From positions 3,988 through 38,679 of the forward strand of contig MU646849.1 in NCBI GenBank assembly GCA_026770585.1: DNA of 34,692 nucleotides, given 5' to 3'. A program made the position numbers and the translations under genes. How positions within the stretch are numbered: position 1 is the stretch's first letter; every line of letters begins with the position of its first letter. Source of the stretch: Baffinella frigidus (lineage: Eukaryota > Cryptophyceae > Cryptomonadales > Baffinellaceae). Under the pieces are notes generated by a model, which saw nothing but the letters and a program-made list of their open reading frames with translations, had not been told where the DNA came from and did no database searches. This document shows, in pieces, positions 1 through 34,692 of this stretch.

Positions 1-92
1 GGTTTGGGGTTTGGGGTTTGGGGTTTGGGGTTTGGGGTTTGGGGTTTGGAGTCTGGAGTTTGGAGTTTGTGGTTTAGGGTTTAGGGTGACAC

Positions 93-156
93 CAGGAGAG
101 GAGCGAGCGCTTGCGAACGACTTTTCCGATCGCGTATCCTCCTCCACTTCCGCCTC
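93..156 (-). CDS. Gene A exon A17 (last seen in window)
   Basis: Acceptor ccctag, 21 codons from EAEVEEDTRSEK to SARSSP plus one base, donor CCTG|gtgtca. Acidic then Ser/Arg-rich. An upstream copy (321-380, acceptor ccccag) reads EEEVEEDTRPEK and lacks a donor. Gene A continues beyond position 1. Confidence 0.55.
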
Positions 157-3100
157 CTAGGGTTTAAGGTTTGGGGTTTAGGGTCCGGGGTTGAAGTTCG
201 GGTCTGTGGTTGAAGTTTAGTATTCAGGTTTCAGTGTCTAGTGTTCAGCATTTAGTGATTAGTGTTAAAGTTTTGGGTCTTGGGTTCAAGTTTTGGGTCT
301 TGGGTTAAAGTTTTGGGTTCTGAGGAGCGAGCGCTTGCGAACGACTTTTCCGGTCGCGTATCCTCCTCCACTTCCTCCTCCTGGGGTTCAGGGTTCAGGG
401 TTCTTGGTTTAGGGTTTAGGGTTTGGGGTTCAGGGTTTAGGGCTTAGGGTTCAGGGTTCAGGGTTTAGGGTGTGGGGTTTAGTGTTTAGTGTTTAGTGTT
501 TAGTGTTTAGTGTTTTGTGTTTAGTGACTAGTGTTTAAGTTTGGGGTTTCGGGTTTCGGGTATAGGGCGTAAAGTTAGGGTTCAGGGTTTAGGGTTCACC
601 CCCTCCTCTTCCTCCTCTTCCTCCCCTTCTTCCACCTGATTCAAGGTTTGGGGTTAAGGTTTGGGGTTTAGGGCTTATGGTGAAGGGTTTAGGGCTTAGG
701 GTTTAGGGTTGATGGTTCAGGGTGAAGGGGTTAGGGCATGAGTTATTGAGTTATTGGGATTAGGGTTATTTGGTTTAGGATTTAGGGTTTAGGGTTTAGG
801 GTTTAGGGTTTAGGGATCAAGGTTTAGGGTTCAGGGTTCAGAGTTCAGGATTTAGTGTTCAGGGTTTGAGGTTCAGGTTTTCGGGTTTCGGGTTTCGACT
901 TTTGGTTGTAGGGTTCAAGGGTTCGGGTTTTGGGGTGTACATCCTCCTCCACGGCATCGTGGAAGCGCATAAACCTGGTTTCGGGTTTAAGGTTCAGGGT
1001 TCAGGGTTCACGGTTACCGGTTCCGAATTTCGGGGTTCGACTTTCAGGTTTCGGGTTTCAGGTTTCTGTTTTCGCCTTTCATTTTTCGTTTTTCGTTTCT
1101 CATTTTTCAGTTTCCGCGTTTTCTGGGTCTGGTGTTCGGTTGTCGGGGTTGGGGGGGGGTACGGGTCGGGCGTGAGGAGGATGCGTCGGAGGACGCGATC
1201 TCCCATGCACCCCTCCAACACGAATGTGTCTTCTAGCGCCTGCGGTTTGGGGTTTAGGGTTTAGGTTTTGGGGTTTAGGGTTTAGGGTTTAGGGTTTAGG
1301 GTTTAGGGTTTAGGGTTTAGGGTTTAGGAGAGAAGGGTTTAGGGTTCAGCACCCCTCCAACACGTATTTGTCGTCCAGCGCCTGTGGTGTGCGGTTTGGA
1401 GTTTGGGGTGTGGGGTTTAGGTGTGGAGTTCAGGGTTGGGTTTGGGGTTTAGGGGATGTTTGGGTTTTGTGGTTGGGGGTTGGGTTTTTTGTTTTTGGGA
1501 TAGGGTTTCGGGGTTTAGGGTCCATGGTTCAGGGTTTAGGGCTTGGGGTTGAGGGGTTACCTCAAACATTGCAGGCATGCTGGGTTTGGTGTTCGGTGTT
1601 TGGGGTATATGATTGAGCGTTCAGCGTTTAGGGTGTACGGCTCACTGAAGCTCGTTGGTCTCACTAAACTCTCAACCCCGCCAACCCCACACCATAATCC
1701 CTGAACCCTGAACGCTGAACCCTGAATCCTGAACCCTGCTACCTCGAGCATTGCAGGCATCCCCGCGACGGGCCATCCCCGCTACCGCACGTCCCACACG
1801 TCCCACACCTACTTAACCCCTATCCCCTTCCCCCTGTTTTTAAATGCCCGGGGACTGGACCTGCCGGCTAGAATTTGCAGAAATTCCAGTGATTTCCGCC
1901 AATTTCCACAGAATCTTCGCCGTCATGTCCAGTTTTCGAGTGTCTAATTTAAATACTCGGCGGGATGAGATCTCTGAGGGAGTGTACCTCGAGCATGGCT
2001 GGCATGCCCGCGACCACCCGCTGACGCCGCACCTCCCGCACGTCCCATACGTACGCCTGCATTCCGTGTTTCGGGTTTGGTGAGTAGGGTTTGGTGTTTG
2101 TTGTTGAGGGATTGGGGATTGGGGTTTGGGGTTTGGTGTTTGGGGTTTGGGGTGTGAGGTTTGGGGTTCAGGAATTGGGGTTAGGGGTCTGTGGTTTGGG
2201 GTTTGGCGTTCAGGGTTCAGGGTTCAGGGGGTCGGGTTCAGGGTGCCCGCGACAACTTGCTGACGCCGCACCTCCCTCACGTCCCATACGTACGCCTGCA
2301 TGTCGTGTTTCGGGTTTGGTGAGTGGGGTTTGGGGTTTATGGATTGAGGTTTGGGGTGTGGGGTGTGGGGTGTGGGGTGTGGGGTGTGGGGTTTGGGGTT
2401 TGGGGTTTGGGGTTTGGGGTTTGGAGTTCAATGTTTAGGGTTCAGGGGGTTGGGTTCAGGGCCTCGAGGTGTAGGGTTTCGGGTTCAAGGGTGGTTTTGG
2501 GTTTCGGATTGACGAACCTGGTACGCGGAGGCGCATGGGGGCTTGAGCTTCTTGAGCCAGTGCAACGCGCAAACCCCGAAACCGCAACCCCTGAACCTTG
2601 AACTCTGAACCCGAAACCTGCAGCCCGAACCCCGGAAACCTGAACCCGAAACCCGAAACCACTGGCTCAAGAACCACACGAGGATGCTAGAGGGGCCTAT
2701 TTAAAACCGATGTACTTTTAAAAGAGGGCATTTGTGTAGTAACTTTCGTTGAATGGTCACGTGACTCTGCTCAAATTGCACAGCCAGGAGGTTACTTTAC
2801 CTTATCCTGGTACAAATATTTACAACCCCACATGTAAATAGGCCCCTCTAGCATTCTCGAGTGGAAGCGCGGTGCCGGTACCGCGTGTTTCGTCTGTCGT
2901 TTTCCGTATTCATGGGTTCGGGTTTCTGTTTTCTGTATTCAGTGGTTCTGTATTCAGGGTCTCTGCATTCAGGGGTTCGGGTTTCTGTTTTCTCGTTGTC
3001 CGTATTCAGGGGTTCGTATTCAGGGGTTCGGGTTTCTGTTTTCCGTATTCAGGGCTTCGTGTTTCGTGTTTCTGTTTTCTCTTGACGGTTTCCCCCTGAA

Positions 3101-6100
3101 CCTGAAACCCAAAGGAACCTGGTCCGCGGAGGCGCAGAGGGACTTGAGTTTCTTGAGCCAGTGTGCGTGCCCTGCCACCAGGTATCGCAGCGTCCGGCAC
3201 GCCTGCACACCAAATCCACTTTAAATGTGTTTTTCGCCTCTCTAAATTTATTGTTAAGTACGTCGTGGTACTGTTTTACAATGTAAATGTGCGCGCCCGT
3301 ACGAAACGGCTCCAACGCCCAGGGCAGATTTGGGCGCGTGCCCCGCCACCAGGTACCGCAGCGTCCGGCACGCCTACACACCAAATCCACTTTAAATGTG
3401 TTTTTCTCCTCTTTAAATGTGTTTTTGAAGTACGTCGTGGTACGTTTTTTACAACGTAAAAGTACGCGCCCGTACGAAACGGCTCCAACGCCCAGGGCAG
3501 ATTTGGGCGCGGACCCGCCACTAAATACTGCGGTACGACACTAGCTCAGAGACTATTCACAAGAGCCACAGACCACACGATAAAACAAGAGGACTATATT
3601 TTGCGTCCGGCTGAAGAGCGTTGACAAATATGAAAACTGGACAGGGAGGATAATCATGCTACTGGAAAGCCGTACCCCGCCCTATCCAGTAACCGATCTT
3701 GGATTCCAAGACCGACGGCTCCAATTCCCACAACTTTAGGGGGAATTAAATTAATTTTAGACACAAAGTTGACACTTTTAAGCAAAAGCTGACTATTAAA
3801 CCCAAATTCATTTTAAAATATTTAGATGGACAGGGCGGGGTGAAGCTTTCCAGTAGTGGATCCACACGATCTGGATCGAGTGCCACGACGGCTCTCCACA
3901 CAGGGCGCTACGTGAGGGTATTCCAGGGTCGCCCTTTGAGCCATTGGGTCGCCCTTGGAGCCGTTTTCTTCTCAAAATTGACTTTTGAATACTGGTTTCC
4001 CTCAAAAAATGACTTTGAAATACCATCCCCTCCAGCCCTGCGTGGTACCTCTCCACTCGAGAATGCTGGAACACCCTATTTACATGTGGGGCTATTACAA
4101 AAAGTAACAGGATAACGTAACCAATCTCGTGACTGGTCTAACTTGGATCAGTTACGTGGCCAATGTCACGAAATTTGCTACACAAATAACCACTTGTAAA
4201 AGCCTCTTGGTGTAAAATATAGTCCTCTTGATTTATCGTGTGGTCTGTGGCTCTTGTAAATAGTCTCTGAGCTTGTGCACTGCGAATCCGGAGATTTTGT
4301 AAAAGTCAACACCCTCACAAATCTGTCAACTTTAGAAACGAGATACACCATTGGTGTACTTCGATTTTCGATTTTCGCCTTGAGTTGACTGATACAAAAA
4401 CTTCGCCCTGGCAGTGTAGTGTCTCTGGACAGCCTCAACCTTTCCTCAGGGTAATTTAATTTCGGACCAAGACAGAATCTGTCCCGCTATCTTAGGCTCC
4501 CCACGCGGAAGGTAAGGGTGTATATGTTATTTTAGGCATCAAATGATGCTATCTTACGCCTTTTCATCAGGACAGATTCTGGTATGGTCCGAGATGAAAT
4601 TACAGTAATGATACCTGCCACTCGAGAATGCTAGACGGGCCTTTTTAAAACCGAACATATAAAGTCTTTACTACACAAATGCTCAAATTTGTACCAGGAT
4701 AAGATAAAAGCAACCTCGCGCCTGGCATAAATTCTGCCAGACACGAGGTTACTTTACCTTATCCTGGTACACATATTTACAACTTTTTTTTTCACATATA
4801 AATAGGCCCGCCCGCGCGCGGATGTGTACCAGGACGAGCCCTAAAACGGGCGTATCCAGTACCAGGAAACCGCTGAATACCCTCTAAGCAGGGGCAGCCT
4901 AAACCGTTCCTCGGTATGATTACAAATATTTATGTTCAAATAATTATACTGAGCATACCTGAGCCTGCACGCCCGCGTGCGGCGAGACGCACAGGGGGAT
5001 GAGCGCGACCAGCGCCCCTGCGTCCATGATCCCTGACCGCGCCTGGGACAGGGTTAGGGGTTGGGGTTCAGCGGGTTGGGTTTTAGGGTTCAGCGGGTTG
5101 GGTTTAAGGGTTTAGCGGGTTAGGTTTCATAGGGCTTAGGGTGTGGGGTGAGGGGTTAGGGGTTTGGGGTGTGGGGATTGGGGATTGGGGTGAGGGGTTA
5201 GGGGTGAGGGGTTGGAGGTTAGGGTGCAGGGTGCAGGCGTTCGGGTGTAGGTGTATGTGTGTGTTGGGGGGGGGGTTATGGGCTTCGGGCTGAGGGGTCA
5301 GGGGGATGAGCGCGACAAGCGCCCCTGCGTCCATGATCACCGAACGCGCCTAGGATAGGTTGTGGGGTTAGTGCGAAATGGCTCCACCGCCAAGACAAAA
5401 ATCTGAGATAGAATCTGATCGGTGGCGGGAATAATTTGGTGTTTGGTGTTTGGTGTTTTGGGTTAGGGTTTAGGGGTTGGGGGTTAGGGTTCAAGGTTCC
5501 GGGTGTAGGGGTGTTTGTGTCATACTTCGTGTGACAGGGGTTTAGGGCTTCGTGTTTCGTGTTCTGGGGTTAGGGAATAAGGGTTTGGATTTCGGGGTTA
5601 GGGGGTGAAGGGTTTGAGGAGACGCATAGGGGGATCAGCGCGACGCGCGCCCCTGCGTCTATGATACCTGATCGCGCCTGGGATAGGGTTCGCGTTTGGG
5701 GTTTAGCGGGTTGGGTTTGAGGGTCTAGCGGGTTAGGTTTCATAGGGCTTAGGGTTTAGGGTGTGTGGATTGGGGTTTGGGGTTTGGGGTTTGGGGTTTA
5801 GGGTGCGGTGTTTGGGGTTTGGGGTTTGGGGTTAGGGGTTCGGGGTTGGGGTTCAGGCTTTGAGGCTAAGGGTTTGGTCTGTAGTAAGAGAGCAGAAGGG
5901 GGTACCTCGGGGCCCGAGGCGAGCGCGGCGAGGATGGAGGTCCCGCACAGCTGCATCCTCACGTCAGCCGAACGCGCGAGCGCAATCACCTGCGACCCCA
6001 GATGCAATTTCAAACACAGTCGAGAGAGACTCTAGAGGGCTCTAGAAGGCTCTTTGCTACACGCAAGGCTCTAGACGGCTCTAGGAGCGCGGCGAGGATG

Positions 6101-9100
6101 GAGGTCCCGCACAGCTACAGCCTCACATCTGCCGAGCGCGCAAGTGCAATCACCTGCCCCGGCGGGCACCCGCACTTGAAACGCTATGCATGTAGATATA
6201 CGCACTTTTAACGATGACTTAAGGCGACCACAAAGTGACTTTAAACCCCGCCAATCGGTTTATAGAGCAAGGCGTTTTTGTACCAGGAAGGGCGTGTATA
6301 ATGCATGTGCGGAGTATAATACATGTGTGGAGCGTATATGTACATGGCTGGCGCGTGGTTAGGGCAGGCGGTTTCGGGTTTCGGGTTTCGGATTTCGGGT
6401 TCAGGGTGTAGGGTTTCGGGTTCAGGGCTTCGGGTTTCGGGTTTCGGGTTTCGGGTTCAGGTTCTAGGGTGTAGGGCTCAGGGTTCAGGGTTTAGGGGTT
6501 AGGGTTCAGGGTTTAGGGGTTAGGGTTTGGGGTTTAGGATTTGGGGTTTAGGGTTTAGGGTTTAGGGTTTAGGGTTTAGGGTTTAGGGTTTAGGGTTTAG
6601 GGTTTAGAGTTTAGGGTTAGGGTTTAGGTACCGAACGGAGGAGCATGAGTTTGAGGAGGTGCCGGCGGTTTTCGGCACACTGCACCTGGTTTCGGGTTTC
6701 GGGTTTGGGTCTTAGTGTTTAGGGCTTGGGGTTCAGGATACATGGGGTAGGGTTTAGGGCTTAGAGAGAATGGGGGTACGGTTCTACCAACCCTCCACCT
6801 CTCTCTAAATCCCTTAACGCTTGGGAGTGTTGTTTTTCAGCAAACACAACAAGGTGTTTAGATCGAGTAGGGAGTAGGGAGTAGGGTTGTACCAGCTGGG
6901 CGAGGGCGAGGGCTGCGGCGACGAGCAGTTTGGTGTCGCGCGAGCCCTGCTTGTAGTCGATGATGCTTCCCAGAACCTGCGGGGGCTCGGTTTAGGGTTC
7001 AAGGTTTGGGGTTTGGGGTTTGGGGTTTGGGGTTTGGGGTTTGGGGTTTGGGGTTTAGGGTTTGGGGTTGAGGGATTAAAATAGTCCCTCTTCCAGCCTC
7101 GAGTGGATCGAGACGCCCGCTGTGGTTCTCTCGCTTGGGGTTGGGGGTCATGCTGTTGAGTAGAGGGTTTCTCGTTCATGGTTTCTGGTGTAGGGTGTTA
7201 AAATTAGGGTGTAGAGTTTAGAGATTGGGGTTTAGGGTGTTGGGATTAGGGATTATGGTTTATATGGTTTGGGATGTGCGGTTTGCCTGCACGGCGCCGA
7301 GCAACACGGTTTAGGGTTTAGGGTTCAGGTTTCAGGGTTTAGGTTTCAGGGCGTAGGGTTTAGGGTTTAGGGTTTAGGGTCTAGGGTTTAGGGTTTAGGG
7401 ATTAGGGGTCAGGGGTTATGGGCTAGTGGTTATGGGCTAGGAGTTAGGGTTTAGGGTTTAGGGTGTAAAGGTTGCCTGGACGGCGCCGAGCGACACGGCC
7501 TGCAGCGCCAGGTTTCTGTTCTTGGCTATCGCGCCCAGCGCCAGCACCTGGGGTTTCGGTTTCGGGTTAAGGGTTTGGAGTTCAGGGTTTCGGATGTCGG
7601 GTTCAGGGCTTGGAGGTTTAGGGATTGGGGTTTAGGGATGGTGGATTGGGGTTTAATTAGGGTGTAGTTAGGGTTTAGGGTACAGGGATCAGGGTTGAGA
7701 TAGGATTTAGATAGGGTTCAGTTAGGGTCTAGTTGGGGTCTAGTGTGTTTAGGGGTTTGATAGGGGATAGTTAGGATTTAGGGACTAGGGACTAGGGATT
7801 ATTTGGGGTTTTGGGTTTGGGGTTTGGGGTTTGGGGTTTAGGGTTTGGGGGTTGAGACCGCGTGGAACTCCTTGAGCTTGGAGGCGGCCCACCGTTAGGG
7901 TTTAGTTAGGGTTTAGCTTTCAGGGGTTTGGGTGTATCGAGGGCGCAGTTATCGGTTGGTTGGGGTTCAGGGTTTAGAACGTAGGGTTCAGTTAGGGTTT
8001 CGGGGTTGGGATTAGGGATTAGTTGGGGATTGGGGATTGGGGATTGGGGTTTGGGGTTTGGGGGTAGGGACCGCGTGGAACTGCTTGAGCTTGGAAGCTG
8101 CCCGCCCCCCCGCCACGATGGTCTTCACCTGCGTTACCGTTCTGGGGTTACCGTTTACGCTTTTCATTTGTATGGTTTAGGGTTTTAGGGTTTTAATTTG
8201 TAGGGTGTAGTGTTTTAGGCTGTTAATTTGTAGGGTTTAGGCTTTTAATTCGTAGGGTTTAGGTGTTTAGGCCTCTAATTTGTAGGGTTTAGGCTATCAA
8301 TTTGTAGGGCTTAGGCTTTTAATTCGTGGGGTTTAGGGGTTCAGGGTTTAGGGGTTTAGGGTTCGGGGTTTAGGGTTCGGGGGTTAGGGTGTAGGGTGTA
8401 GGGGAGCTTGGAAGCTGCCCGGCCCCCCCGCCACCATCGTCTTCACCTGTGTAATCAGAAAATGGTACTATTCATAGTGACTTTACAAAATCCCGGGATG
8501 GGATTTTGTAAAGTCACTATTAATAGTACCATTTTCTGATCTCTCAGGGTTTCGCTTCAGGGGTTACCGTTCAGGCTGTTAATTGGTAGGGTTGAGGGGT
8601 TAGCGTTTAGGCTTTTAATTTATAGGGTTTAGGGGTTCAGGGTCTAGGGGTTTAGGGTTCGGGGGTTAGGGTGTAGGGTGTAGGGTGTGGGGGTTCACGG
8701 TGTACGGGTTCACGGTGTAGGGTGTAGGGTGTAGGGTGAAAGGTTTAGGGTGTAGGGGTTCACGGTGTAGGGTGTAGGGTGTAGGGTGTAGGGGTTCACG
8801 GTTTAGGGTGCAGGGTGTAGGGTGGTACGCTGTTGGGCACGAGGGCCAGGCGCTCATGGTTCGTCGGTGATTGCGCCAGTGTTCAGGGTTTATAGTTTAG
8901 GGTCCAGGATTTCGGGGCCAGGATTCAGGGTTCTACACGAAACACTAAAACCTACATCCTTGACGGGCGTGTATAATACATGTGTGGAGCGTATAAGGCC
9001 CTGTACCCTTAACCCTAAATGTAGGGTATGGGGGGGGTACGCTGTTGGGCACCAGGGCCAACCGCTCGCGGTTCGTCGGTGGTTGCGCCAGGATCGCCTC

Positions 9101-15094: not shown

Positions 15095-15142
15095 ATGGGT
15101 GCGAGTGAAGGAGACGAGCAGGATGACCACACGGAGGAAGAG
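15095..15142 (+). CDS. Gene B exon B1: start
   Basis: MGASEGDEQDDHTEEE, 16 codons, ATG in good eukaryotic context (ccaggATGG), donor GAG|gtgcgc. No earlier ATG occurs in this frame. Strongly acidic. Confidence 0.65.
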
Positions 15143-27100: not shown

Positions 27101-28746
27101 CCCTCACCCCAATTGAACATGTCCCTGGACGAACCCGAAACGAATTGAACATGTCCCTGGACGAACCCGAAACGAATTGAACATGTCCCTGGATGAACCC
27201 GAAACGAATTGAACATGTCCCCGGATGAATCGCAGGAGAGGATGGCAGTGGATGCATCGGACGCGGCCGCGCACCCGTGCCGTGCCGCCCCAACGGAACA
27301 CCAGGTACCTCTATAGAGCGGTTTTCGCATCTGTCGGCCACCAACCGATATGAAATTTATTAACAAGGGCTCCAATTCCGGCCACTTTTGGCATTTTTAT
27401 CACAAAATAAAACTCTAAAACTTCAGAATCACGCCAAAAGTTGCCGGAATTGGAGCCCTTGTTCATATTTTCATGTCGGTGAGTGGCCGACAGATGAGAA
27501 AACCGCTCTACCCTAAAACTCATACCCTCAACCCTAAACCCGAAACCCCGTGCCGCGCCGCCCCGACTGAGCACCGGGTATAAAACCTACCCAAATAAAG
27601 TGTCGTGCCGCTCCGACTGGGCACCAGATACCCCTATACCCCAAAAACTCATACCCTCAACCCTCAACCCGAAACCCTGAACCCTGAACCCTAGACCCTG
27701 GACGCTGCACACTGAACCCTGAACCCTAAATCATCAAGTCCAAACCGAGCCGCGCCACCCCCCCCGGAACACCAGGTGACACATTCCCTATTCCCCATGC
27801 CCGAACCCCTACACCCGAAACCCGAAACACTGAACCGTGAACAGTCGTGCCGCTCCGACTGAGCCCCAGGTGTCCCTACACCCTACTCACACCCTAAATC
27901 CTGAACCCTCAGCCCTCAACCCCAACACCTAAACCCTAAACCCCAACCCTCGAACCCCTAACCTCAACCCCCGAACCCCCGACCCGAAACCCGAAACCCG
28001 AAACCCCAAAGGTGAACCAGAGTAACAACCTGCACGCGCGGTGGGTGGCGCTCTCGCTCGCCGCTGCAGAGGACGTGCCTGACGTGGTACGCACCACACC
28101 CTAACCCCGACATCCTAAACCCGAAACCTGGGATCCGAAACCCCGAAACCCGAAACCCGAAACCCGAAACCCGAAACCCGAAACCCTGCTCGATCATCTA
28201 CCTTACCCCTTAAACCCTCAACACAACACGCAAATTCCTACCCCCCAAACCCCACACCCGACACGAGGTGCACCTCCTGATCGACATGGGCGAAAGGCCC
28301 ATCTCACACGTCCGAAACCCGAAACTTTGCACGAACCCCCCCCGATAGGCTCGGCTTACACACTTATAGCCGGCTCACACGCTAATGGTCGTTTCACACA
28401 CTAATGGTCGGCTTACACACCAATGTTCGGCTTAAACACTAAAATCCGGCTCACACAGTAATGGTCGGCTCACACAATAATGGCCGGCTTACACGATAAT
28501 GGCCAGGTACACCACCTGATCGACATGGGCGCGAAGCTCATCTCACACGCCCGCGATTCCCGAAACTTTGCACCGTCTCACACAATCATTGTCGGCTCAC
28601 ACAATAATTACCGGCTTACACAATAATGACCAGGTGCACCACTTGATCGACATGGGCGCGCGCGTCGCGACCGAGAAGCTCATCTCACACGCCCACGATT
28701 CCCGCGCCCACCTCCGCGAACTCCAGGTGTGTGTGTGTGTGTGTGC

Positions 28747-28782
<36 letters not shown>

Positions 28783-28814
28783 CTCGCTCTCGCTCTCTCT
28801 CTCTCTCGCTCCCG

Positions 28815-28845
<31 letters not shown>

Positions 28846-31800
28846 CCCGAAAATCGAAAACCGAAACCCGAAGCGCGTCGCGACCGAGAAGCTGGTTTCG
28901 CACGCGCACGATTCTCGCGCCCACCTCAGTCATGCAAAAAGCTTTCGCCAGCGAACCCCTTATTTGGACGCGACTCCGTACAAAATTTATAATGGAAAAC
29001 AATTTAGGATTTTAAAAGTCCTGAAATTGCTTTTAAAACTGTTTTAGAGCCTGTGACTCCCTCGCCAGCGGACCACCTAGGGGGTCCGCTGGCGGAAGCT
29101 TTTGGCATTATCAGAGAGCTCCAGGTCTCACCCCGAACCCCGGAACACGGAATCAGGAATCAGGAACCCGAAACCCGAAACCCGAAACTCGAAACCCGAA
29201 ACCCGAAACCTGGAATCAGGAACCTGAATCCCGAAACCCGAAAGCCGGAATCAGGAATCAGGAACCCGAATCCCGAAACCCGAAACCCGAAACCCGGAAC
29301 CTGGAACCAGGAACACGAATCCCGAAACCTGGAATCCGGAACCCGAAACCCGAAACCAGGAATCAGGAACCCGAATCCTGAAACCCGAAACCCGGAATCA
29401 GGAATCCGAATCCCGAAACCCGAAACCCGGAACCCGGAACCCGAACCCGGAATCAGAAATCAGGAACCCGAATCCCGAAACCCGAAACCCTAAAACCCTA
29501 TAACCCCTAAACCTCTCTCCACCTGGGGCTGGGCTCGCGGGTCCTAAACCCGGAACCCGGGATCAGTTGCCAAGAAAGGAAATGGGGCCGGACCTGGCCT
29601 AAACCCTAACCCCTGAGCCCGGAATCCGGATCCCGGAACCAGGAATCCGAAACCCGAAATCTGGAACCCGAAATCCGAAATCCGAAATCCGGGACCAGGT
29701 GCAACGGGAGGAGATGGGGCGGGATCTGGCGGACTCGAAGCATGTGGAGATTGATGAGGTTGCACGAAACATCGACGCGCTCGAGGTTCCCTAATCCGTG
29801 AACCTGAAACCCTGAACCCGAAGCCATAACTTAAAACCCGAACCCGTGAACTCTGAACCTGAACCCCGAAATCCGAAACCCGAAACATCGACGCCCTTGA
29901 GGTACCCTTTCTGACCCCTAAAACGGAAACACGAAATCCGAAACCTGGAACCCGAAACCCGAAACCCGAAACACGAAACACGAAACATCGACGTCTTTGA
30001 GGTTGCGAGCCCCCCGCCCTCCCCACACAGCGAAACTACGGAGGGGTTTCGCGAATAACACATTCGTGAAAGAGCCGTAGGACCCTACTGTAGATGATCC
30101 ATAGGGACATAGGGTTGCGCGAAACATCGACACCCTTTCTAAACCCTTATTGTAGATTTCGGGTCCGCGCGGATTTTCTCGAGGTCAGGTCGGGGTGTCG
30201 GGAAATGTAAATCTCGATAATTGGTGCGTCCATCTAAAGTTTTATGCTATCTTATGCATTGATATGATGACAAGATGCACCCCCCACCCATAATATGTCA
30301 CAAATACTAGAGCCCTTTTTTCGATTTTTTCGATTTTTCCTGACTTCCCGACCCCGACCCAAAATCCGCGCTGACCCGAAAAGTACAATAACTCCCTATT
30401 CCGCAACAGGAATAGGTGTTGCGGGTGTGTGATCCACGGTCGGCTCACACAATAATGGCCGGCTCACACAATAATGGTCGCCCAACAAACTAATAGCCGG
30501 TTCACACACTATTGGCCGGCTTGCACACTAATGGCCGGCTTACACACTAACAATTAAACCTACACTCAAAAACAGGAGGAGGTGATGCTGGTACGGAAGG
30601 CCCTCCACGAGCTCCCCCCAACAGGCTCCCAGCGCGAGAAAATTCGCCTCAACCAGGTTATCAGCCCCCCGAGAAAATCTGCCCCCACGCGACGATGGCC
30701 TGCGGATCAAATTGGCCTGTTTTCAAAGTCAACCCACCCACAAATCTGTCAACTTTGCGCGGATTCCGAACAAAAATACTTTTAGTAGTGCGGGAATAAT
30801 AGAAGGACGGATCGGATTTGGCACACAGGTTATCGTCGCGTGGCCCAGCCAGGTTCTGAGGCCCCCCGAAAGGCGGAATTGGAACCTGAACCATAAATCC
30901 TCGTGCACGAGCTCCCCCCCACAGGGTCGCAGCGCGAAAAAAATCGCCTCAGTCAGGTCATGAGGCGCACATTGCGATTTAAATACTTGAGCAGTTAAAT
31001 GCTAAAAGCTCGCTCCCATAGGACCTTTGCCAGTCCCAGTCAGAGAGTTGCACATGATAGAGCATTTGCACGAGCCCCCCCCCAACAGGCTTGCAGCGCG
31101 AGAAAATCCGTCTCAATCAGGTTATGTATGAGGCATCCCGTTGGGAAATTGGAGGGTAGTTCTGGGGGTAAGTGTGCTTCTGCTCTAGCCTTCCCCTGAA
31201 GAGTTCCCCTCAACTCTATCTCTCGCTTCTAGACCCTAAACCCTAAACCCTAAACCCTAAACCCTAAACCCTAAACCCTAAACCCTAAACCCTAAACCCT
31301 AAACCCCAAACCCTAAACCCTAAAACCTACACCCCGAACCCTAAACCCTGTACCCTCAACCCTCAACCCTATCAATACGCAACTCTTCCCCTCTCTAAAT
31401 GCTCAACCTTAACCGTTAACCTGAAACCTCAAAACCTAACAGGAATCGGCGACGGCGAACCGTTCTCTTCAGACTCTACGTCTGAAGAGGGTCGAGCTCT
31501 CTGATCCCTGAACCCCAAACGCTAAACCCCAAACCCTAAACCTTAAACTCTGAACCCTGAACCCTGCACCCTGCACCCTGCACCCAGGAGTCGGCGACGG
31601 CGAACCATTCTCTTTGGACCCTGCGGCTGAAGAGGGTCTCCAATTACCTGCAGAGAAACCTAAACCCTGAAACCTAAATCCCGAACCCTTAAAAACATGG
31701 TGGCCATGTTGGATTCGATGCGTAATACTCGCAGTTTTTCTTCTAAACCTCACACCCTTACAGGAATCGGCGACGGCGAACCGTTCGCTCCGGACCCTGC

Positions 31801-34692
31801 GGCTGAAGAGGGTCGAACTTCGCAACGAGATGGAGGAGATGGAGGCCAAGCTGGTACCGGAAACCCGAAACCTCGCACCCTAAACCCTACACCTCGCACC
31901 CTAAATCCTAAACCTCGCACCCTTAACCATAAACCTCGCACCCTAAACCATGTACCCCAAACCCTAACCCCCAACCCCGAAACACCAAACCCTCAACCCT
32001 GAATGTCACACCCCCAACCCCAACTCCTCAAACCCCAAACCCCAAACCCCAAACCCCAAACCCCAAACCCCAAACCCCAAACCCCAAACCCCAAGCCCCA
32101 AACACTACACCCCGCAACAGCGGGCGCTCGACTCGGACTTCCCCGCGTCGTGTGCACACCTTCATAGGCTAACGGACTAAAAATGGGGTAGTCAGGCCTA
32201 CGGAATTGCCTACCGTAGGCCGTAGGGCTCCTATGACCAAAACGTCCTGTGCGCACACCTCGAGACCCTCGGAGGGGCTCGAAGTCGCTCCAATCGCTCG
32301 AAATGGCTCCAATCGTTCGAAATCGCTCCGATCGCTACGGCTTTCTGGCGTGTTTTCCGGGGCAGAATTCTGGGAAGCAATTGACTTTGGGCGGATTCCC
32401 ACGTACGTGGGGGTCGTGACTTGGGATGGCCTAACCCCCACCCTGCAACAGCGGGCGCTGGACTCGGACATCCCCGCGTCGCGCGCACACCTCGAGACCC
32501 TCGAAGGAGCGCTGGGCGACCATGCGCGCAGCACGGCCCTGCACCGCGCGTGCCAGCTTCACCGCCCTGCCATGGTAGCCCCCCTCGTCGTTGGGAGCTG
32601 AGGGGTCAGGGCCATCGCCATGAAAGGCAGGGTGTATGGTGTAGGGTGTAGGGTGTAGGGTGTAGGGCATAGGGTGTAGGGTGTAGGGTGTAGGGTGTAG
32701 GGTGTAGGGTATAGGGTGTAGGGTGTAGGGTGTAGGGGACCACGCGCGGAGCACCGCGTGTGCCAGCTTGGCCCCGTGATGGTACAGTCCTGCGGTGGGG
32801 GGTTGGTGTTGAGGGCCATAGCCTACACCCTGCACCCTACACCCTACACCCTGCAACCCTACACCCCACACCCTACGACCTACACCCCACACCCTACACC
32901 CCACACCCTGCACCCCTAAGCCTAGGGTTTCAGGGTTGAGGTTGTGGGGTGGAGGGCGCTGAGCGACCATTCGGGAAGCACGGCCCTGCACCGCGCGTGC
33001 CAGCTTCACCGCCCCGCTATGGTAGCCCCCCTCGTCTTTGGGAGCTGAGGGGTCAGGGCCATAGCCATGAAAGGCAGGGTGTATGGTGTAGGGTGTAGGG
33101 TGTAGGGTGTAGGGTATAGGGTGTAGGGTGTAGGGTATAGGGTGTAGGGTGTAGGGTGTAGGGAACCACGCGCGGAGCACCGCGCGTGCCAGCTTCACCG
33201 CCCCACTATGGTAGCCCTGTGCTTTCGGGGGTTGATGGTCAGAGCCATAGCCGTAGAAGGCGTGGAGTGTGGGGGGTGGGGTGTAGGATTTAGGGTTCCG
33301 GACATGGTACAACTCTGCATCAGGGTTTTACAGCAAGTCTGAAAGGGTGGAATTTCCTTCCGTGGTCCCGTCCTAGCTTCACCACGGCGCAAAACCCATC
33401 CGTACCAAAGCACAATGGGCTTTGAGTTTACGATTTCCATGAGGGGTTGCTGCAGAAACAGGGTCCGTGTCAGCAGACCGGTCTGCCGACCGGTCCGACT
33501 GTCTTCTGACCGACTGTCTTGGAGCGCTGTGCAGAGACGTTGGCCACCGAAAAATGGGGAAATGGGGAAAAATTGGAGCCGTTGATGTCCACTTTTGAGA
33601 AATTCATGGTTCTAAATTTCTTAAAAGAAGACAAAATGGCTCCAATTTCTCGATTTCCCATTATTTCCCGTGGCCAACTTCTCTGCACAGCGCTCTACCA
33701 CGTGACGGCGCTGGCCGTCATACAATACATTTAGACCGGAAACGCCATTTCCAAAAAGCAGCTTTAATAAAGAGCCGTGTCACCCAAGCTCGTCAGGTGA
33801 CGGCCTTAATCGCGACCGGGCACGTGCCTGACCCCGAGGACGCGTCGGGCAACTCCCCGCTGCACTTCGCTCTCAGTCTCGTCCTAGCTCTACCTCGGCG
33901 CAAACTCTGGCCGGTGTTCTGACCGGTCTGCTGACCAGTCCGACTGTCTTCTGACCAGGTGACTGTCTTGTGACCAGGTGACGGCCTTAATCGCGGCCGG
34001 ACACATGCCGGACCCCGAAGATGCGTCCGGCAACTCCCCGCTGCACTTTGCGGCTGCGCACGCCAACGCCGCGTGCGTCGACGCTCTCGCTGACGCCCTC
34101 ATCGCACGAGGTCAGGACACACCAAAGTGGGGGGCTCAGTTAACCCGCCAAACCCCACGAAACTATGGGGTACATAGTTAGCTGCGTGGGGTTTGGCGGG
34201 TTAGCTCAGCGCTGCACTTTCGCACAGATCCGGGGCGGTCCGTGGCCTTTGTTTACATATCGGTTTGACGCTCGCGTCCAGGTTTGTACGAGAGCCGGTC
34301 ACGTTGCGCACGGTTGAGCGTTGGTAACGTGACCAACTCCCGTACAAAAGCTCTAAAAGAGGATTTACGCGCCCACGTGTAGGTTTTAAACAAAGGCCAC
34401 TCCCCGCCTCGAGTGGCAGATGCGGAGCATTTGCGCCGATCGCAACGCCGATGAATCGGCGCTTATGGGGCTTTTGACCATCATTTGACCATCAACTGGG
34501 GATTTTGACCATCAAATGATGGTCAAAAGCTCCAGTAAGTTGACTTGAGGACTTAATCAAGGGGCCCAAAACTGCCCCCTTTTCTAACGAAATTATGGTT
34601 CCCCGCACAGATGCGGAGCAGCTGCGATCGGCGCTGGAGAAGCAGAACGCGTTCGGGCAGCGCCCGATCGACCTTGTCTCCGAGCCTCTCAC
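15095..34692 (+). CDS. Gene B (partial, 25 exons placed): coiled-coil and ankyrin-repeat protein
   Basis: Exon chain from ATG 15095 to the right edge, where the last exon is still open. Phases agree at every junction except B5 to B6. Notable non-zero phase runs that fit are B6 to B7 (G|GC), B13 to B16 (1, 2, 1, 0) and B23 to B24 (G|AT). Protein order: acidic and Pro-rich N-terminus, a folded-looking segment (VVCSNVDAVK, FRIKGGIDRR), charged helical/coiled-coil exons, a Pro-rich linker, an ankyrin-like pair (B17-B18), more coiled coil (B19-B21), then ankyrin repeats (B22-B24). Ankyrin and coiled-coil parts bind proteins; no enzymatic motif is seen and no orthologue is recognised. Inferred without transcript data. 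Confidence 0.7.
15230..15319 (+). CDS. Gene B exon B2: Pro-rich
   Basis: Acceptor gctgcag, 30 codons from IARRTSPGGEAEEHPP to GRKPQARP, donor CCG|gtacag, phase 0. Pro/Glu/Lys-rich and probably disordered. Confidence 0.6.
15366..15434 (+). CDS. Gene B exon B3 (tentative, GA donor)
   Basis: Acceptor aaacag, 23 codons from HRRCSHPLLAAMLPLL to TMLTHK in phase 0. The heptamer intron begins immediately at AAG|gaaccc, which would be a GA donor. If not an exon, B2 joins B4 directly, also in phase. Confidence 0.35.
15435..15825 (-). repeat. C-rich heptamer introns of gene B, first tract
   Basis: CCCTAAA at 15438-15475, CATCCCT heptamers at 15487-15550, CCCTAAC after B4. First tract right of the divergent promoter; G-rich strand is now -. 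Confidence 0.8.
15566..15679 (+). CDS. Gene B exon B4
   Basis: Acceptor gcacag, 38 codons from VVCSNVDAVKSAAS to GKAQLDL, donor TTG|gtaggc, phase 0. Single copy. Contains YPLSFRIKGGIDRRGK, perhaps a beta-hairpin; family not recognised. Confidence 0.7.
15826..16116. other. Non-heptamer intron with a diverged CAGACTATTC element
   Basis: Holds the 15878-15950 relative of the 12556-12658 element; the rest looks unique and I see no gene in it. Confidence 0.4.
16344..16435 (+). CDS. Gene B exon B5
   Basis: Acceptor ggcag, 30 codons from VRTIWAEVEVGGVAEAMF to MLRQR plus AG; donor here is gcaacc, while copies at 16594 and 16907 have CGGAG|gt. Copy at 16117-16196 has the same acceptor and starts VRTIW with synonymous changes; the copy at 16858-16907 keeps the 3' frame (EAMFRHHRL). 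The exit phase does not match B6. Confidence 0.6.
16603..16755. mobile_element. MITE-like element, TCATCTCGGA family
   Basis: 153 bp. Arms GATTTCATCTCGAAAGATAA and ..TTCCGAGATGAGATT extend through CTGAATCAGTTCC (about 33 bp). AT-rich centre. Confidence 0.75.
17586..17709 (+). CDS. Gene B exon B6: coiled coil
   Basis: Acceptor ccttag, 41 codons from VKEVEREKDSAFGARR to HSHLST plus G, donor ACAG|gtttgg. VEELASVTRDIS is heptad-like. Five copies surround it. Third-position changes dominate between them (CTC/CTT, TCC/TCG, CTC/CTG), which fixes the frame. Confidence 0.65.
17710..18250 (+). repeat. Polarity-reversed tract between B6 copies
   Basis: G-rich on + (GGGGATAGGGGATAGGGG, GTGTAGGGCGTAGGG) inside gene B, confined to the spacers between B6 copies; returns to C-rich at 18310. 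Confidence 0.7.
18493..18539 (+). CDS. Gene B exon B7
   Basis: Acceptor ccgcag, GC completing Gly with B6, then GPSPEIIVAEARGVK, donor AAG|gtcgac. Phase match on both sides. Confidence 0.6.
18855..18905 (+). CDS. Gene B exon B8
   Basis: Acceptor aaccag, VGIQHEGHPLWDPTLQQ, donor CAG|gcaagt, a GC donor with the extended consensus usual for GC introns. Phase 0. Confidence 0.6.
19492..19644. mobile_element. Introner-like TIR element with AGGAC duplication
   Basis: TIR TCATCCGGGGACATGTT / AACATGTCCCCGGATT; flanked by AGGAC at 19487-19491 and 19645-19649. The right AGGAC supplies the AG acceptor and first codon (GAC) of exon B9. Confidence 0.7.
19647..19730 (+). CDS. Gene B exon B9
   Basis: Acceptor ggattag, 28 codons from DGGALMACDARMMVLR to GDANAIHK, donor AAG|gtccaa, phase 0. 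LRAAYRGDANAI resembles an ankyrin helix. Its acceptor AG lies in the target duplication flanking a TIR element (19492-19644). Copies lie at 19213, 19386, 19890, 20131 and 20226. Confidence 0.6.
19741..20110. repeat. TATAC-rich palindromic minisatellite
   Basis: Diverged units of AGTATACAGTATACAATATA and TACGTATAT, with B9 copies between blocks. Related ATACATATAGTTATACATGT units at 20865-20965 precede B10. Confidence 0.7.
20336..20478 (-). repeat. Second copy of the 3705-3840 repeat
   Basis: CCCGCCCTGTCCATCTAA to CACAACTTTAGGGATGGGAA. The following CCAATTCC/GGAATTGGAGCC motif recurs in several elements (27375, 33577). Confidence 0.55.
20798..20851 (+). pseudogene. Copy or alternative of exon B10
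   Basis: Acceptor tttgcag, VGVAEEMEEGYQEALAAP, then gtatag. Same phase as B10 and splice-competent on its face. A third fragment follows the gap (21782-21807, GAGGCGCTGGCGAGC). Confidence 0.45.
21014..21079 (+). CDS. Gene B exon B10
   Basis: Acceptor ggttgcag, 22 codons from VGVAEEMEEEYQEAL to LPAVLQ, donor CAG|gttccg, phase 0; charged helix. A shorter copy at 20798-20851 (VGVAEEMEEGYQEALAAP) ends at gtatag and may be an alternative. Confidence 0.6.
21118..21214 (-). repeat. TGTAGGG-type array (CCCTACA on +) running into the gap
   Basis: About 13 near-perfect CCCTACA heptamers up to the first N; the array probably caused the assembly break. Confidence 0.9.
21215..21781. other. Assembly gap (567 N)
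   Basis: Run of N. A B10 fragment resumes immediately after it, so the hidden DNA may hold more heptamers and further B10 copies. Confidence 0.99.
22030..22232 (+). repeat. (GA)n microsatellite
   Basis: About 200 bp of GAGAGA with GAGC/GGGAGA interruptions; purine-rich on the sense strand, unlike the usual C-rich introns. Confidence 0.9.
22284..22372 (+). repeat. GGGCCTAACCTCCAGGCCTA minisatellite
   Basis: Three diverged units of GGGCCTAACCTCCAGGCCTA followed by GCCGC. Confidence 0.7.
22748..22807 (+). CDS. Gene B exon B11: coiled coil
   Basis: Acceptor aattag, EKLESQRKQLETFLANDGSA, donor GCG|gtcccc, phase 0. Two upstream 5' copies (22523-22564, 22625-22666) share EKLESQRKQ and have synonymous AGG/CGG and ACC/ACA differences. 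Confidence 0.65.
22826..23030. mobile_element. 205-bp TIR element inserted at TA in a heptamer
   Basis: Ends TATTGTCGAAATGGGC and GCCCATTTCGACAATA; inner GAGGTCAGGTCAG / CTGACCTGACCTC. Flanks aaaccc-TA and TA-aaaccc show a TA duplication within CCCTAAA. Confidence 0.75.
23060..23322 (+). other. Unassigned non-heptamer block
   Basis: Contains three GAACGGATGATACTTGAA-like units (23130-23215) and an exon-like patch at 23285-23318 (VDEIDVHESV) without an AG acceptor. No firm gene. Confidence 0.25.
23379..23423 (+). CDS. Gene B exon B12: coiled coil
   Basis: Acceptor cgagcag, ERIAETTENVRMLEW, donor TGG|gtgccc, phase 0. A partial copy (23684-23721) reads VETKHNVRNLEW. Confidence 0.55.
23654..23693. 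repeat. 40-bp hairpin
   Basis: GTCTCCACGTTCAGG arm, T-rich loop, CCTGAACGTGGAGAC arm; abuts the B12 partial copy. Could act as a small foldback insertion. Confidence 0.7.
23720..24060 (-). repeat. CCCTAAA heptamer intron
   Basis: CCCTAAA with three ATTCTGAGCCATAAACCCTA units (23778-23838). Leads into the B13 copies. Confidence 0.75.
24106..24407 (+). pseudogene. Copies of exon B13
   Basis: Three acceptor-bearing copies (24106, 24211, 24366) in a unit that also repeats GTGACCGAATCTTCGAAGGA and GTCGTAACCCCT. None keeps the 3' part KRADRI or a donor. Confidence 0.5.
24529..24598 (+). CDS. Gene B exon B13
   Basis: Acceptor cccacag, 23 codons from DMVQAKTGAIRWNEEM to KRADRI plus G, donor ATCG|gtcact. 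Upstream copies at 24106-24127, 24211-24264 (DMVQAKTDAIRWDEEMAQ) and 24366-24407 lack a donor. Confidence 0.65.
24600..25320 (-). repeat. CCCTAAA/CCCCAAA introns around B14
   Basis: Long heptamer tracts; CCCTAAA best at 24880-24960 and 25035-25065. A charged patch at 24736-24776 (ELLRRAQREERV on +) resembles coiled coil but has no splice acceptor. Confidence 0.75.
24973..25018 (+). CDS. Gene B exon B14
   Basis: Acceptor aaacag, AA completing Glu, 14 codons NLANAGGRSTAMSA, then AA|gtaaca. Small/polar residues; fits phase with both neighbours. Confidence 0.55.
25322..25389 (+). CDS. Gene B exon B15: Pro-rich linker
   Basis: Acceptor taacag, one base completing Lys, then 22 codons from SSGDPAPEPPPYLAPK to ESFAPP, then G|gttaag. 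The phase dictated by B14 turns an otherwise Arg-rich reading into a plausible Pro-rich linker. Confidence 0.55.
25540..25607 (+). CDS. Gene B exon B16
   Basis: Acceptor tcccag, two bases, 22 codons from AGVNANAGTTTEGMRR to AALKE, donor GAG|gcaata (GC). Downstream copies end GAG|gtccaa (25842) and GAG|gtccag (26166), so one of those donors may be used instead. The copy at 26104-26166 (GVNASPGEKTEGMRRVVALKE, split here as GVNASPGEK and TEGMRRVVALKE) has synonymous differences. Confidence 0.6.
25715..25825 (+). repeat. 21-bp in-frame minisatellite (TNTENIA)
   Basis: Five diverged 21-bp units such as ACCAACACGGAAAACATATC. In the B16 frame each encodes seven residues TNTEN(I/V)(A/S), with no stop from 25715 to the donor at 25842. 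Confidence 0.75.
25909..26085. mobile_element. TAGAGCG-type TIR element
   Basis: TA-GAGCGTTTGCGGTAATTG to CGCAAACGCTC-TA, ~60-bp arms, TA target duplication. Confidence 0.75.
26178..26206. repeat. 29-bp perfect-arm palindrome
   Basis: GAATAAACCCTTAC followed by its complement GTAAGGGTTTATTC; contains CCCTTA, a heptamer-like core. Confidence 0.7.
26640..26690 (+). other. Exon-like block without clear splice sites
   Basis: Non-repeat patch reading EALRAARKQDLPPGCNG on + beside a long hairpin. Could be an exon remnant of gene B; no acceptor or donor is convincing. Confidence 0.2.
26714..26863. mobile_element. 150-bp hairpin element
   Basis: Arms of about 65-70 bp from TAACGGCCTGAAAATGGGG inward to CTACCGTAGGCCGAG. 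The related half at 32166-32240 sits inside a B23 copy. Confidence 0.75.
27111..27234 (+). repeat. 33-bp tandem repeat abutting the B17 acceptor
   Basis: Four units of AATTGAACATGTCCCTGGAT plus GAACCCGAAACG. The last unit (ACATGTCCCCGGATGA) leads straight into the acceptor tcgcag. Confidence 0.8.
27236..27304 (+). CDS. Gene B exon B17
   Basis: Acceptor tcgcag, 23 codons from ERMAVDASDAAAHPC to PTEHQ, donor CAG|gtacct, phase 0. Two 5' partial copies lie upstream (26415-26458, 26998-27035) and four 3' partial copies downstream (27548-27871). Confidence 0.65.
27314..27510. mobile_element. TAGAGCG-type TIR element
   Basis: TAGAGCGGTTTTCGCATCTG to CAGATGAGAAAACCGCTCTA, arms about 68 bp with GGCTCCAATTCCGGC, TA flanks; 10 bp after the B17 donor. 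Confidence 0.8.
27640..28011 (-). repeat. Heptamer intron with B17 3' fragments
   Basis: CCCTGAA/CCCGAAA units. Carries GTGCCGCTCCGACTGAGC-type B17 ends at 27602-27628, 27745-27772 and 27844-27871. Confidence 0.65.
28012..28086 (+). CDS. Gene B exon B18: ankyrin-like, first half
   Basis: Acceptor ccaaag, 25 codons from VNQSNNLHARWVALSLAA to DVPDV, donor GTG|gtacgc, phase 0. WVALSLAAAEDVPDV followed by VHHLIDMGA (next exon) fits the helix-turn-helix and loop of an ankyrin repeat. Confidence 0.65.
28350..28628 (+). repeat. GGCTCACACAATAATGG minisatellite, array 1
   Basis: About a dozen 19-20 bp units (GGCTTACACACTAATGG and variants), interrupted by a B19 copy. The same repeat recurs 1.8 kb away at 30432-30552. 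Confidence 0.8.
28634..28726 (+). CDS. Gene B exon B19: ankyrin-like, second half
   Basis: Acceptor gaccag, 31 codons from VHHLIDMGARVATEKL to AHLRELQ, donor CAG|gtgtgt, followed at once by (TG)n(CT)n. Copies at 28268-28310, 28507-28565 (15-bp in-frame deletion) and 28871-29125 (split by an element). Confidence 0.65.
28727..28843 (+). repeat. (TG)n(CT)n tract at a donor site
   Basis: TGTG then CT repeats with CTCG interruptions, beginning with the donor gt of B19 itself. Confidence 0.9.
28928..29113. mobile_element. TIR element inside a B19 copy
   Basis: GCAAAAAGCTTTCGCCAGCG / CGCTGGCGGAAGCTTTTGGC arms plus an inner CCAGCGGACC hairpin; flanked by TCAG on both sides. Confidence 0.7.
29130..29490 (-). 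repeat. CCCGAAA/GGAATCA array
   Basis: Compound units of AATCAGGAACCCGAATCCCG and CCCGAAA, roughly 350 bp. Encodes periodic NPKPETR readings on +, an artefact. Confidence 0.8.
29699..29785 (+). CDS. Gene B exon B20: coiled coil
   Basis: Acceptor gaccag, 29 codons from VQREEMGRDLADSKH to VARNIDALE, donor GAG|gttccc, phase 0. 5' fragment copy at 29565-29599; 3' fragment copies at 29881-29902 and 29984-30003, with a trace at 30119. Confidence 0.65.
30148..30390. mobile_element. 243-bp TIR element, relative of 22826-23030
   Basis: TTATTGTAGATTTCGGG / CCCGAAAAGTACAATAA ends, inner GGTCAGGTCGGGG / CCCGACCCCGACC, TA at both junctions, within ACCCT heptamer DNA. Confidence 0.7.
30432..30552 (+). 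repeat. GGCTCACACAATAATGG minisatellite, array 2
   Basis: Six units matching the array at 28350-28628, ending just before the B21 acceptor. Confidence 0.8.
30576..30656 (+). CDS. Gene B exon B21: helical
   Basis: Acceptor aaacag, 27 codons from EEVMLVRKALHELPPTG to KIRLNQ, donor CAG|gttatc, phase 0. Two 3' copies (30903-30956, 31062-31120) keep the donor. Confidence 0.65.
30685..30843. mobile_element. 159-bp element with 12-bp TIR
   Basis: CCACGCGACGAT / ATCGTCGCGTGG perfect ends just downstream of the B21 donor; interior has GTCAACTTTGCGCGGATTCC. Confidence 0.65.
31230..31440 (-). repeat. Near-perfect telomere-type CCCTAAA array
   Basis: About ten perfect CCCTAAA units at 31234-31303, the cleanest interstitial array in gene B, decaying afterwards. 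Confidence 0.9.
31764..31853 (+). CDS. Gene B exon B22: coiled coil
   Basis: Acceptor ttacag, 30 codons from ESATANRSLRTLRLK to EEMEAKL, donor CTG|gtaccg. Copies at 31443-31500 (seven of eight codon changes synonymous) and 31588-31640 keep acceptor and frame but lose the 3' part. Confidence 0.7.
31858..32115 (-). repeat. CCTCGCACCCTAAAC and CCCCAAA arrays
   Basis: Higher-order CCTCGCACCCTAAACC units at 31870-31955, then homogeneous CCCCAAA at 32028-32103. Confidence 0.8.
32163..32250. mobile_element. Hairpin-derived insertion in a B23 copy
   Basis: CATAGGCTAACGGACTAAAAATGGGG-type half-element (left half of 26714-26863) plus CTACCGTAGGCCGTAGG. The flanks repeat GTGCACACCT / GTGCGCACACCT, either a target duplication or overlapping exon copies. 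Confidence 0.6.
32452..32574 (+). CDS. Gene B exon B23: start of ankyrin repeats
   Basis: Acceptor caacag, 41 codons from RALDSDIPASRAHLET to CQLHRPAM, donor ATG|gtagcc. STALHRACQLHRPAM is the TALHxAC helix of an ankyrin repeat. A 5' copy split by an element lies at 32121-32280; 3' copies at 32741-32781, 32956-33021 and 33164-33210 keep the donor. Confidence 0.7.
32632..33290 (+). repeat. Polarity-reversed TGTAGGG arrays between B23 copies
   Basis: GGTGTAG heptamers on + at 32632-32735 and 33077-33163, with a C-rich TGTAGGG-type stretch (32820-32925) between. Each G-rich array starts with GGCAGGGTGTATGGTG, so a ~440-bp unit including a B23 3' end was duplicated. Confidence 0.75.
33522..33695. 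mobile_element. GAGCG-type TIR element
   Basis: GAGCGCTGTGCAGAGACGTT / ..CTCTGCACAGCGCTC, arms about 58 bp with GGCTCCAATT, right TA flank kept and left flank TG. Confidence 0.75.
33978..34110 (+). CDS. Gene B exon B24: ankyrin repeat
   Basis: Acceptor gaccag, 44 codons from VTALIAAGHMPDPEDAS to ALADALIAR plus G, donor gtcagg. GNSPLHFAAAHANAACVDAL is a canonical ankyrin repeat (GxTPLHxAAxxGxxxxVxxL). A 5' copy at 33797-33871 has nine codon differences, seven synonymous. Confidence 0.8.
34134..34209. mobile_element. 64-bp foldback with GCTCAG duplication
   Basis: Direct GCTCAG at 34134-34139 and 34204-34209 enclose arms TTAACCCGCCAAACCCCACG and CGTGGGGTTTGGCGGGTTA; 23 bp after the B24 donor. 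Confidence 0.75.
34242..34400. mobile_element. TIR element GTGGCCTTTGTTTA
   Basis: Outer GTGGCCTTTGTTTA / TTTAAACAAAGGCCAC; inner TTTGTACGAGAG / CTCCCGTACAAA and GGTCACGTT / AACGTGACC. Confidence 0.65.
34467..34533. repeat. TTTTGACCATCATTTGA hairpin
   Basis: GGCTTTTGACCATCATTTGA pairs with TCAAATGATGGTCAAAAGCT; 78 bp before the B25 acceptor. Confidence 0.65.
34611..34692 (+). CDS. Gene B exon B25: ankyrin repeat, cut by window end
   Basis: Acceptor cgcacag; AT completes Asp with B24, then AEQLRSALEKQNAFGQRPID and LVSEPL; open at the window end. NAFGQRPIDLVSE matches the next ankyrin unit (NxxGxTPLDLA). A 5' fragment copy lies at 34420-34449. Confidence 0.75.
   Translation, partial: MRSSCDRRWRSRTRSGSARSTLSPSLS

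Follow-up and report, generated by a model that had tools for sequence, protein, structure and literature searches.

The window, by which we mean the whole analysed stretch of 34692 bases (contig MU646849.1, 3,988-38,679; 567 of the bases are N), contains two divergent gene models whose introns are rich in variable heptamers resembling TTTAGGG/CCCTAAA. The gene models were generated with a simple semi-Markov exon model, which was seeded with hand-read exons. A heptamer block was defined as a 21-nt stretch, in any register, in which at least 15 of 21 positions agreed with (CCCTAAA)n. Blocks with the C-rich strand as the sense strand are called C-sense, and blocks of the opposite orientation G-sense or wrong-way. 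The method that led to each of the main features is given in brackets:

582-14772, minus strand: gene model with an ATG at 14772 and 25 model exons, some of which are partial copies made locally (exon model and Pfam)
14773-15094, no strand: gap between the divergent start codons, across which the heptamer polarity flips (gene models and change point)
15095-34692, plus strand: gene model with 29 model exons, which continues past the window end (exon model and Pfam)
1-14519, minus strand: region of the minus gene, with heptamer blocks mostly TTTAGGG-like on the plus strand, i.e. C-rich on the sense strand (block scan)
15428-32116, plus strand: C-rich-on-plus blocks in introns of the plus gene, with another one at 32816-32925 (block scan)

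By eye, exon 1 of the minus gene encodes a hydrophobic, transmembrane-like stretch, and the middle of the plus gene product looks coiled-coil-like. The minus gene yielded an Armadillo repeat match (PF00514, 28.5 bits, cut-off 20.6) that crosses from exon 4959-5042 into exon 3119-3202, and the plus gene yielded ankyrin repeats near its 3' end (PF12796, 32.3 bits, cut-off 27.3). The proteins scanned against Pfam were joined model exons; where an exon had several copies, one was picked by hand. In an earlier Pfam scan with a hand-read left protein, the ARM match was below threshold (15.4 bits, cut-off 33), and when ankyrin exons were scanned singly, one was under its cut-offs and another matched no family. 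RNA families and tRNAs were not found in the window.

The sense readings of the two genes scored 161 and 215 and the antisense readings 19 and 45, the model having been trained on the sense reading. When the model was trained on one gene and applied to the other, with splice sites set neutral and a background symmetric between strands, the scores were 88 versus 26 for the right gene and 67 versus 22 for the left gene. Masking of the heptamers, again with splice sites set neutral, gave 129 versus 28 and 78 versus 12, respectively. In addition, the differences in 61 mutually non-independent pairs of exon copies were distributed 89/69/180 over codon positions 1/2/3. The predicted strands of both genes are thus backed by the cross-validated exon model, the Pfam matches and the third-position excess. 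The two models leave between them the same gap, 14773-15094, from which the genes had been claimed to diverge in a previous, sequence-only reading of the window.

The 52 model introns had 47 GT and 5 GC donors, and 41 CAG, 8 TAG and 3 other acceptors, whereby the model favours CAG. Some of the short model exons are probably decoys, i.e. partial copies of real exons. Also in the region 582-34692, 43 of the 52 model introns were in phase 0 and six model exons were exactly 84 nt long; the third-position excess among the exon copies indicates that these may have been, or may still be, coding.

The polarity of the heptamer DNA was quantified on both sides of the gap. At positions 1-14500 the block scan detected 6383 nt that were G-rich and 816 nt that were C-rich on the plus strand, whereas at positions 15431-34692 C-rich DNA (5550 nt) outweighed G-rich DNA (724 nt) on the plus strand, i.e. 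polarities of 89% and 88%. In numbers of blocks, the ratio of G-rich to C-rich was 45:10 on the left and 10:54 on the right (119 blocks; Fisher P 1.4e-13). A single change point fits best between blocks 14465-14519 and 15428-15567, and both start codons sit inside this gap (14519-15428). These results confirm that the polarity is real, though not absolute. The claimed flip, with the G-rich strand on plus left of 14.5 kb and the opposite right of 15.43 kb, holds. That it occurs exactly at the promoter is true for the change point, but not for all of the DNA, because about 11% is wrong-way on each side.

Neighbouring blocks are related by duplication and are not independent, and therefore coarser units were also tried. 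When the 23 same-orientation runs were used as units, 10.7% of the draws from a random-orientation null scored at least as high as the real change point; when same-orientation neighbours were merged at 200, 500 or 1000 bp, the values were 0.4, 2.0 and 9.4%. With these coarser units, the window alone provides modest evidence for an orientation switch.

In both halves, exact TTTAGGG/CCCTAAA is the most frequent unit of the main orientation, and the array units are variable heptamers without a fixed element. Outside of the heptamer DNA (15-bp pad) the GC skew was just +0.026 on the left and -0.021 on the right, so that the skew is limited to heptamer DNA and a general GC skew was rejected as the cause of the polarity. 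These values also bear on the explanation that the C-rich sense strands were made by strand-biased mutation or by the direction of replication. The main polarity changes only once, at the divergent promoter, which would be in line with it. However, the near-zero skew in the remainder of these genes makes a general strand-asymmetric mutation unlikely, and we disfavour this explanation as very improbable.

Intron make-up, local duplication and wrong-way blocks

Heptamer DNA accounted for 12929 of 30184 nt (43%) in model introns, but for only 116 of 3605 nt (3%) in model exons. The net polarity was C-sense in 40 of the 52 model introns and G-sense in 7, while 5 were devoid of heptamer DNA. These numbers agree with the earlier claim that, on the sense strand, the introns of both genes are CCCTAAA-like and hence rich in C and poor in G. 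Introns between non-copy exons were distributed similarly, with 12 C-sense, 2 G-sense and 1 without heptamer DNA in the left gene (n=15), and 20, 4 and 1 in the right gene (n=25).

For 42 of the 54 model exons a non-self match was found within the window. The matches, some of which may be chance in the case of heptamer-like exons, numbered 97; 91 were in the same orientation and 83 of these were less than 1 kb away. None of the 61 pairs of exon copies were farther apart than 779 nt, and at distances above 1.2 kb model exons were not recognisably similar to each other (best BLOSUM62 scores 29 and 31). The introns look like chains of array, exon fragment and array, which would have been formed by local tandem duplication. 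Introns are also enlarged through local duplication, so that the arrays are not fully independent, and an orientation can be carried along within a gene without any selection.

Long inverted repeats were also observed within the gene models, mostly in introns, at 26703-26874, 25907-26087, 8446-8548, 27314-27510 and 34124-34220. They have arms of 42-76 nt that are 83-94% complementary, a spacing of 5-113 nt, and the look of MITE-type elements.

The block scan revealed the following wrong-way features:

1681-1740, minus strand: block in the middle of intron 1382-1987, with C-sense blocks toward the acceptor
2570-2664, minus strand: block in the middle of intron 2296-3118, with C-sense blocks toward the acceptor
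8932-9022, minus strand: block within intron 8447-9177, with C-sense blocks on either side
9787-10208, minus strand: blocks 9787-9933 and 10147-10208 amid copies of exon 10547-10615
10147-10208, minus strand: the second of these blocks, which adjoins the acceptor of a 15-nt model exon and is one of two acceptor-side exceptions
11436-11870, minus strand: blocks next to a duplicated exon (copies 11867-11938 and 11665-11732)
11740-11870, minus strand: block that adjoins the acceptor of the second exon copy (11665-11732), the other acceptor-side exception
17709-18252, plus strand: blocks alternating with exon copies on the donor side of intron 17665-18492, the acceptor side of which is C-sense
32626-33167, plus strand: GTGTAGGG arrays 3' of ankyrin exon copies

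When the nearest block within 200 nt was scored in the full model, the ratio of C-sense to G-sense was 38:2 at acceptors and 31:10 at donors (Fisher P 0.026). The contrast was weaker with splice-neutral acceptors (31:4 versus 25:11, P 0.08); with neutral acceptors and neutral donors the counts were 29:4 and 25:9, with no test applied. Both acceptor-side exceptions adjoin exon copies or very short model exons, and several wrong-way blocks are located mid-intron and separated from the acceptor by C-sense DNA. Where an intron had 20 nt or more of each kind, the mean position of G-sense DNA was donor-ward in 7/7, 7/7, 6/6 and 6/7 cases for four model variants, which overlap heavily and are not independent (the last two have splice-neutral acceptors). 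Three introns that have G-sense arrays on the donor side and C-sense arrays on the acceptor side folded better than shuffled sequences (z -10.3, -10.7 and -5.6). This is expected because the arrays are complementary, and is therefore no proof of function. The first GTGTAGGG array in 32626-33167, for example, can pair with the C-sense array at 32816-32925, ahead of the next model acceptor.

Neither gene had a wrong-way block in its first 2.6 kb, a result based on few blocks. This would fit a promoter-proximal hazard, as implied by the idea, in part already voiced in the sequence-only reading, that C-sense arrays spare the nascent RNA and the DNA G-quadruplexes and R-loops, and thereby guard transcription and genome stability. 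G-sense arrays would yield GGG-rich RNA every 7 nt, and the depletion of G-sense DNA is also in accord with this idea. However, beyond 2.6 kb the wrong-way blocks are scattered (about 3 to 13 kb from the start codon in the left gene, about 3 and about 18 kb in the right gene), and the order of G-sense followed by C-sense DNA within introns is not predicted. We regard avoidance of G-rich transcripts as an unlikely explanation.

Array orientation at other loci

The assembly has 382,457,362 bases in 1364 contigs. The exact 21-mer (CCCTAAA)3 occurred 27288 times in the forward and 25832 times in the reverse orientation (overlaps counted), compared to 14 and 13 occurrences of the reversed control; the places among the matches listed (first 100) were all on C1. 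A search for relatives in viral contigs gave no result with tblastn and no exact pattern match.

The kinesin motor domain (PF00225) had 45 matches in the assembly, and these were used for genes with a strand assignment from homology only. Fifteen were sampled: first 11 genes in which a gap separates two matched exons, then 4 more places. From each, 1-2 kb of DNA between or beside the matched exons was chosen without prior sight of the letters. Twelve of the 13 informative genes were C-sense (P 0.003), namely 5/5 on the minus and 7/8 on the plus strand, and over all 15 the C-sense DNA amounted to 4332 nt versus 298 nt of G-sense DNA. The two non-informative cases were L045, without a block, and L036, a near tie (21:23). 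The single exception, L037, rests on one 23-nt block.

Twenty random loci were also chosen, of which nine consisted entirely of N and L026 almost entirely, while L015, L020 and L025 were more than 80% N. Six were inspected for exons. Proteins from L028, L009, L014 and L019 were scanned, and L012, L013 and L023 were left out. Pfam matches over the cut-off were obtained for L028 (myosin, 63 bits) and L009 (CLU protein, 86.6 bits), and the whole-locus ratios of C-sense to G-sense DNA were 4234:137 nt and 739:0 nt, respectively. L014, with a sub-threshold match of 20.3 bits (cut-off 22.7), was C-sense, and the L019 proteins had no Pfam match. In L028, the fuller version of a myosin motor exon (2842-2959) is preceded by a partial one (2461-2532), the same pattern of exon fragments as in the window. 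L019 has a predicted N-terminal peptide at 2511-2636 on the plus strand, which resembles a plastid-targeting presequence of secondary algae.

A cruder test used composition-based strand calls on the random 10-kb stretches, some of which have predicted exons on both strands. Agreement of array orientation and called strand was found for 4 of the 7 informative loci (of 20), which is inconclusive and adds no support. Four of five further loci were all N, and the fifth yielded no usable strand call. In our view this test should be weighed less than the kinesin result, though it is not in favour. The comparison of skew and gene strand at other loci, which the sequence-only reading had put forward with RNA-seq as the source of the strand, thus gave a positive answer for the kinesins, with homology in the place of RNA-seq, but not for the random loci. 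Taken together, the kinesins, the myosin and CLU loci and the two window genes show, for a small sample, that array orientation and gene strand are correlated over independent genes, and the polarity seen in the window extends to other genes.

These data are also informative about two other explanations. First, the arrays might be assembly artefacts or subtelomeric DNA instead of intron bodies, as the long N runs in the assembly could indicate. However, the exact 21-mer is abundant in both orientations, and arrays separate matched exons within individual kinesin genes and also occur in the Arm, ankyrin and myosin genes, which makes this extremely improbable. Second, the polarity could have been inherited neutrally, if few arrays per gene, in one orientation, had been copied through the gene by tandem duplication of array and exon fragments. 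The many nearby same-orientation exon matches and the weak run-level statistics within the window are what would be expected in this case. However, copies reach no farther than 779 nt and exons more than 1.2 kb apart are dissimilar, so that most introns would need a seed of their own. Furthermore, neutral inheritance predicts random orientation across genes, whereas the kinesins, with one exception, the window genes and the myosin and CLU loci are C-sense; this small sample suggests a ratio far from 50:50. We therefore regard neutral inheritance as distinctly unlikely.

Splice-site content and the origin of the polarity

The dinucleotide content of the sense strand differed considerably between the two array orientations. 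GT accounted for 0.8-0.9% of dinucleotides in C-sense arrays and 13.8-17.2% in G-sense arrays, and AG for 1.5-1.7% and 10.1-11.1%, compared to 4.8-5.9% for GT and AG in other window DNA. Acceptor-like YAGG was found 0.25 times per 100 nt in C-sense and 6.23 times in G-sense arrays, an approximately 25-fold difference, and GGT 0.16 and 9.35 times, respectively. Conversely, CTRA occurred 4.58 times per 100 nt in C-sense arrays (548 sites) and was absent from G-sense arrays. C-sense arrays are thus almost devoid of splice sites. This shortage of GT and AG is a stronger reason for the polarity than the supply of polypyrimidine tracts that the sequence-only reading had suggested. The latter is a weak reason, because CCCTAAA yields just 4-nt pyrimidine runs that are interrupted by AAA.

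Two further counts were discarded. The numbers of A5G (33), A6G (3) and A7G (6) variants, only the last two of which create AG, were dropped as a proof of AG avoidance because they are confounded by TTCAGGG, which is named as a high-frequency variant of Arabidopsis chromosome ends (PMC11406999). The median distances from the acceptor to the nearest upstream dinucleotide (AG 39, GT 32, CT 16, AC 7) mirror the make-up of the arrays and are not separate evidence.

The best explanation, which we consider slightly more probable than not, is that array orientation is held by selection for clean splicing, while the repeats were seeded and multiplied for other reasons. The arrays would be degenerate telomeric repeats of the TTTAGGG type, which became seeded within introns, probably where the DNA had broken, and then grew via local tandem duplication. 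A sense CCCTAAA unit has no GT or AG and might offer a loose branch-point-like CTRA in each repeat; since the array lacks AG, the first AG before the exon would be the true acceptor. In contrast, each sense TTTAGGG unit could provide an acceptor, TTTAG|G, and a donor, GG|GT, so that sense TTTAGGG would be purged, seemingly most strictly beside the acceptor. Several observations speak against selection, i.e. the weaker acceptor/donor contrast with neutral splice sites, the mid-intron wrong-way blocks, the kinesin exception L037, and the result of the crude test at random loci.

A more far-reaching version, which we propose only tentatively and think rather unlikely, is that telomere-type repeats serve as intron-building material. 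They would be seeded at breaks, multiplied with neighbouring exon fragments, and retained only in the orientation with a C-rich sense strand, since no splice sites are present in this orientation alone. In mixed introns, donor-side G-rich and acceptor-side C-rich arrays may pair and thereby bring the splice sites close to each other.

Relation to known systems and significance

Orientation-biased repeats in introns have been described before. According to one study, mammalian intronic transposable elements have an antisense bias that is stronger near exons, fewer of them lie near acceptors than near donors, and the authors think that purifying selection is the probable cause (PMC3088655). The likeness is the orientation bias of intronic repeats, whereas the repeat described here is a 7-nt telomere-type satellite that makes up 43% of the model intron sequence and has a polarity of about 88% across entire genes.

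Mammalian interstitial telomeric sequences are likewise internal telomere-type repeats, some of them in introns, and are held to have been inserted during the repair of double-strand breaks (PMC7215372). In that work, a few horse loci have a direct duplication of the flanking sequence, and 31% of the human sequences, which are short stretches, are intronic, a value that the authors call compatible with random insertion. In contrast, the arrays described here occupy a large share of the introns and follow the gene strand. As putative interstitial telomeric sequences, they are internal to genes, and exact TTTAGGG/CCCTAAA is the commonest unit of their main orientation.

Heptamer arrays of chromosome ends share with these arrays the head-to-tail variant heptamers, the local homogenisation and the higher-order repeats, but the arrays found here are intragenic and occur in either chromosomal orientation, according to the gene strand. 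Introner elements are mobile introns, in which dispersed and nearly identical copies have common ends and give rise to new introns; the arrays described here consist of variable heptamers rather than of such a fixed element. Oriented telomere-type arrays as intron bodies were not reported in the titles and abstract beginnings of the open literature among the matches listed.

In summary, the introns of the examined genes are rich in decayed telomere-type repeats, and the C-rich strand is nearly always the coding strand, probably due to the false splice sites that the opposite orientation would introduce. If true, this would bear on the question of whether intronic telomeric repeats affect splicing, which is left open for mammals in the above study (PMC7215372). 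A simple tandem repeat could then fill many introns and be tolerated in genes, and its orientation would decide whether it is nearly invisible or ruinous for the spliceosome. Repeat polarity would also hint at the gene strand from DNA alone in such genomes, which may occur in algae.
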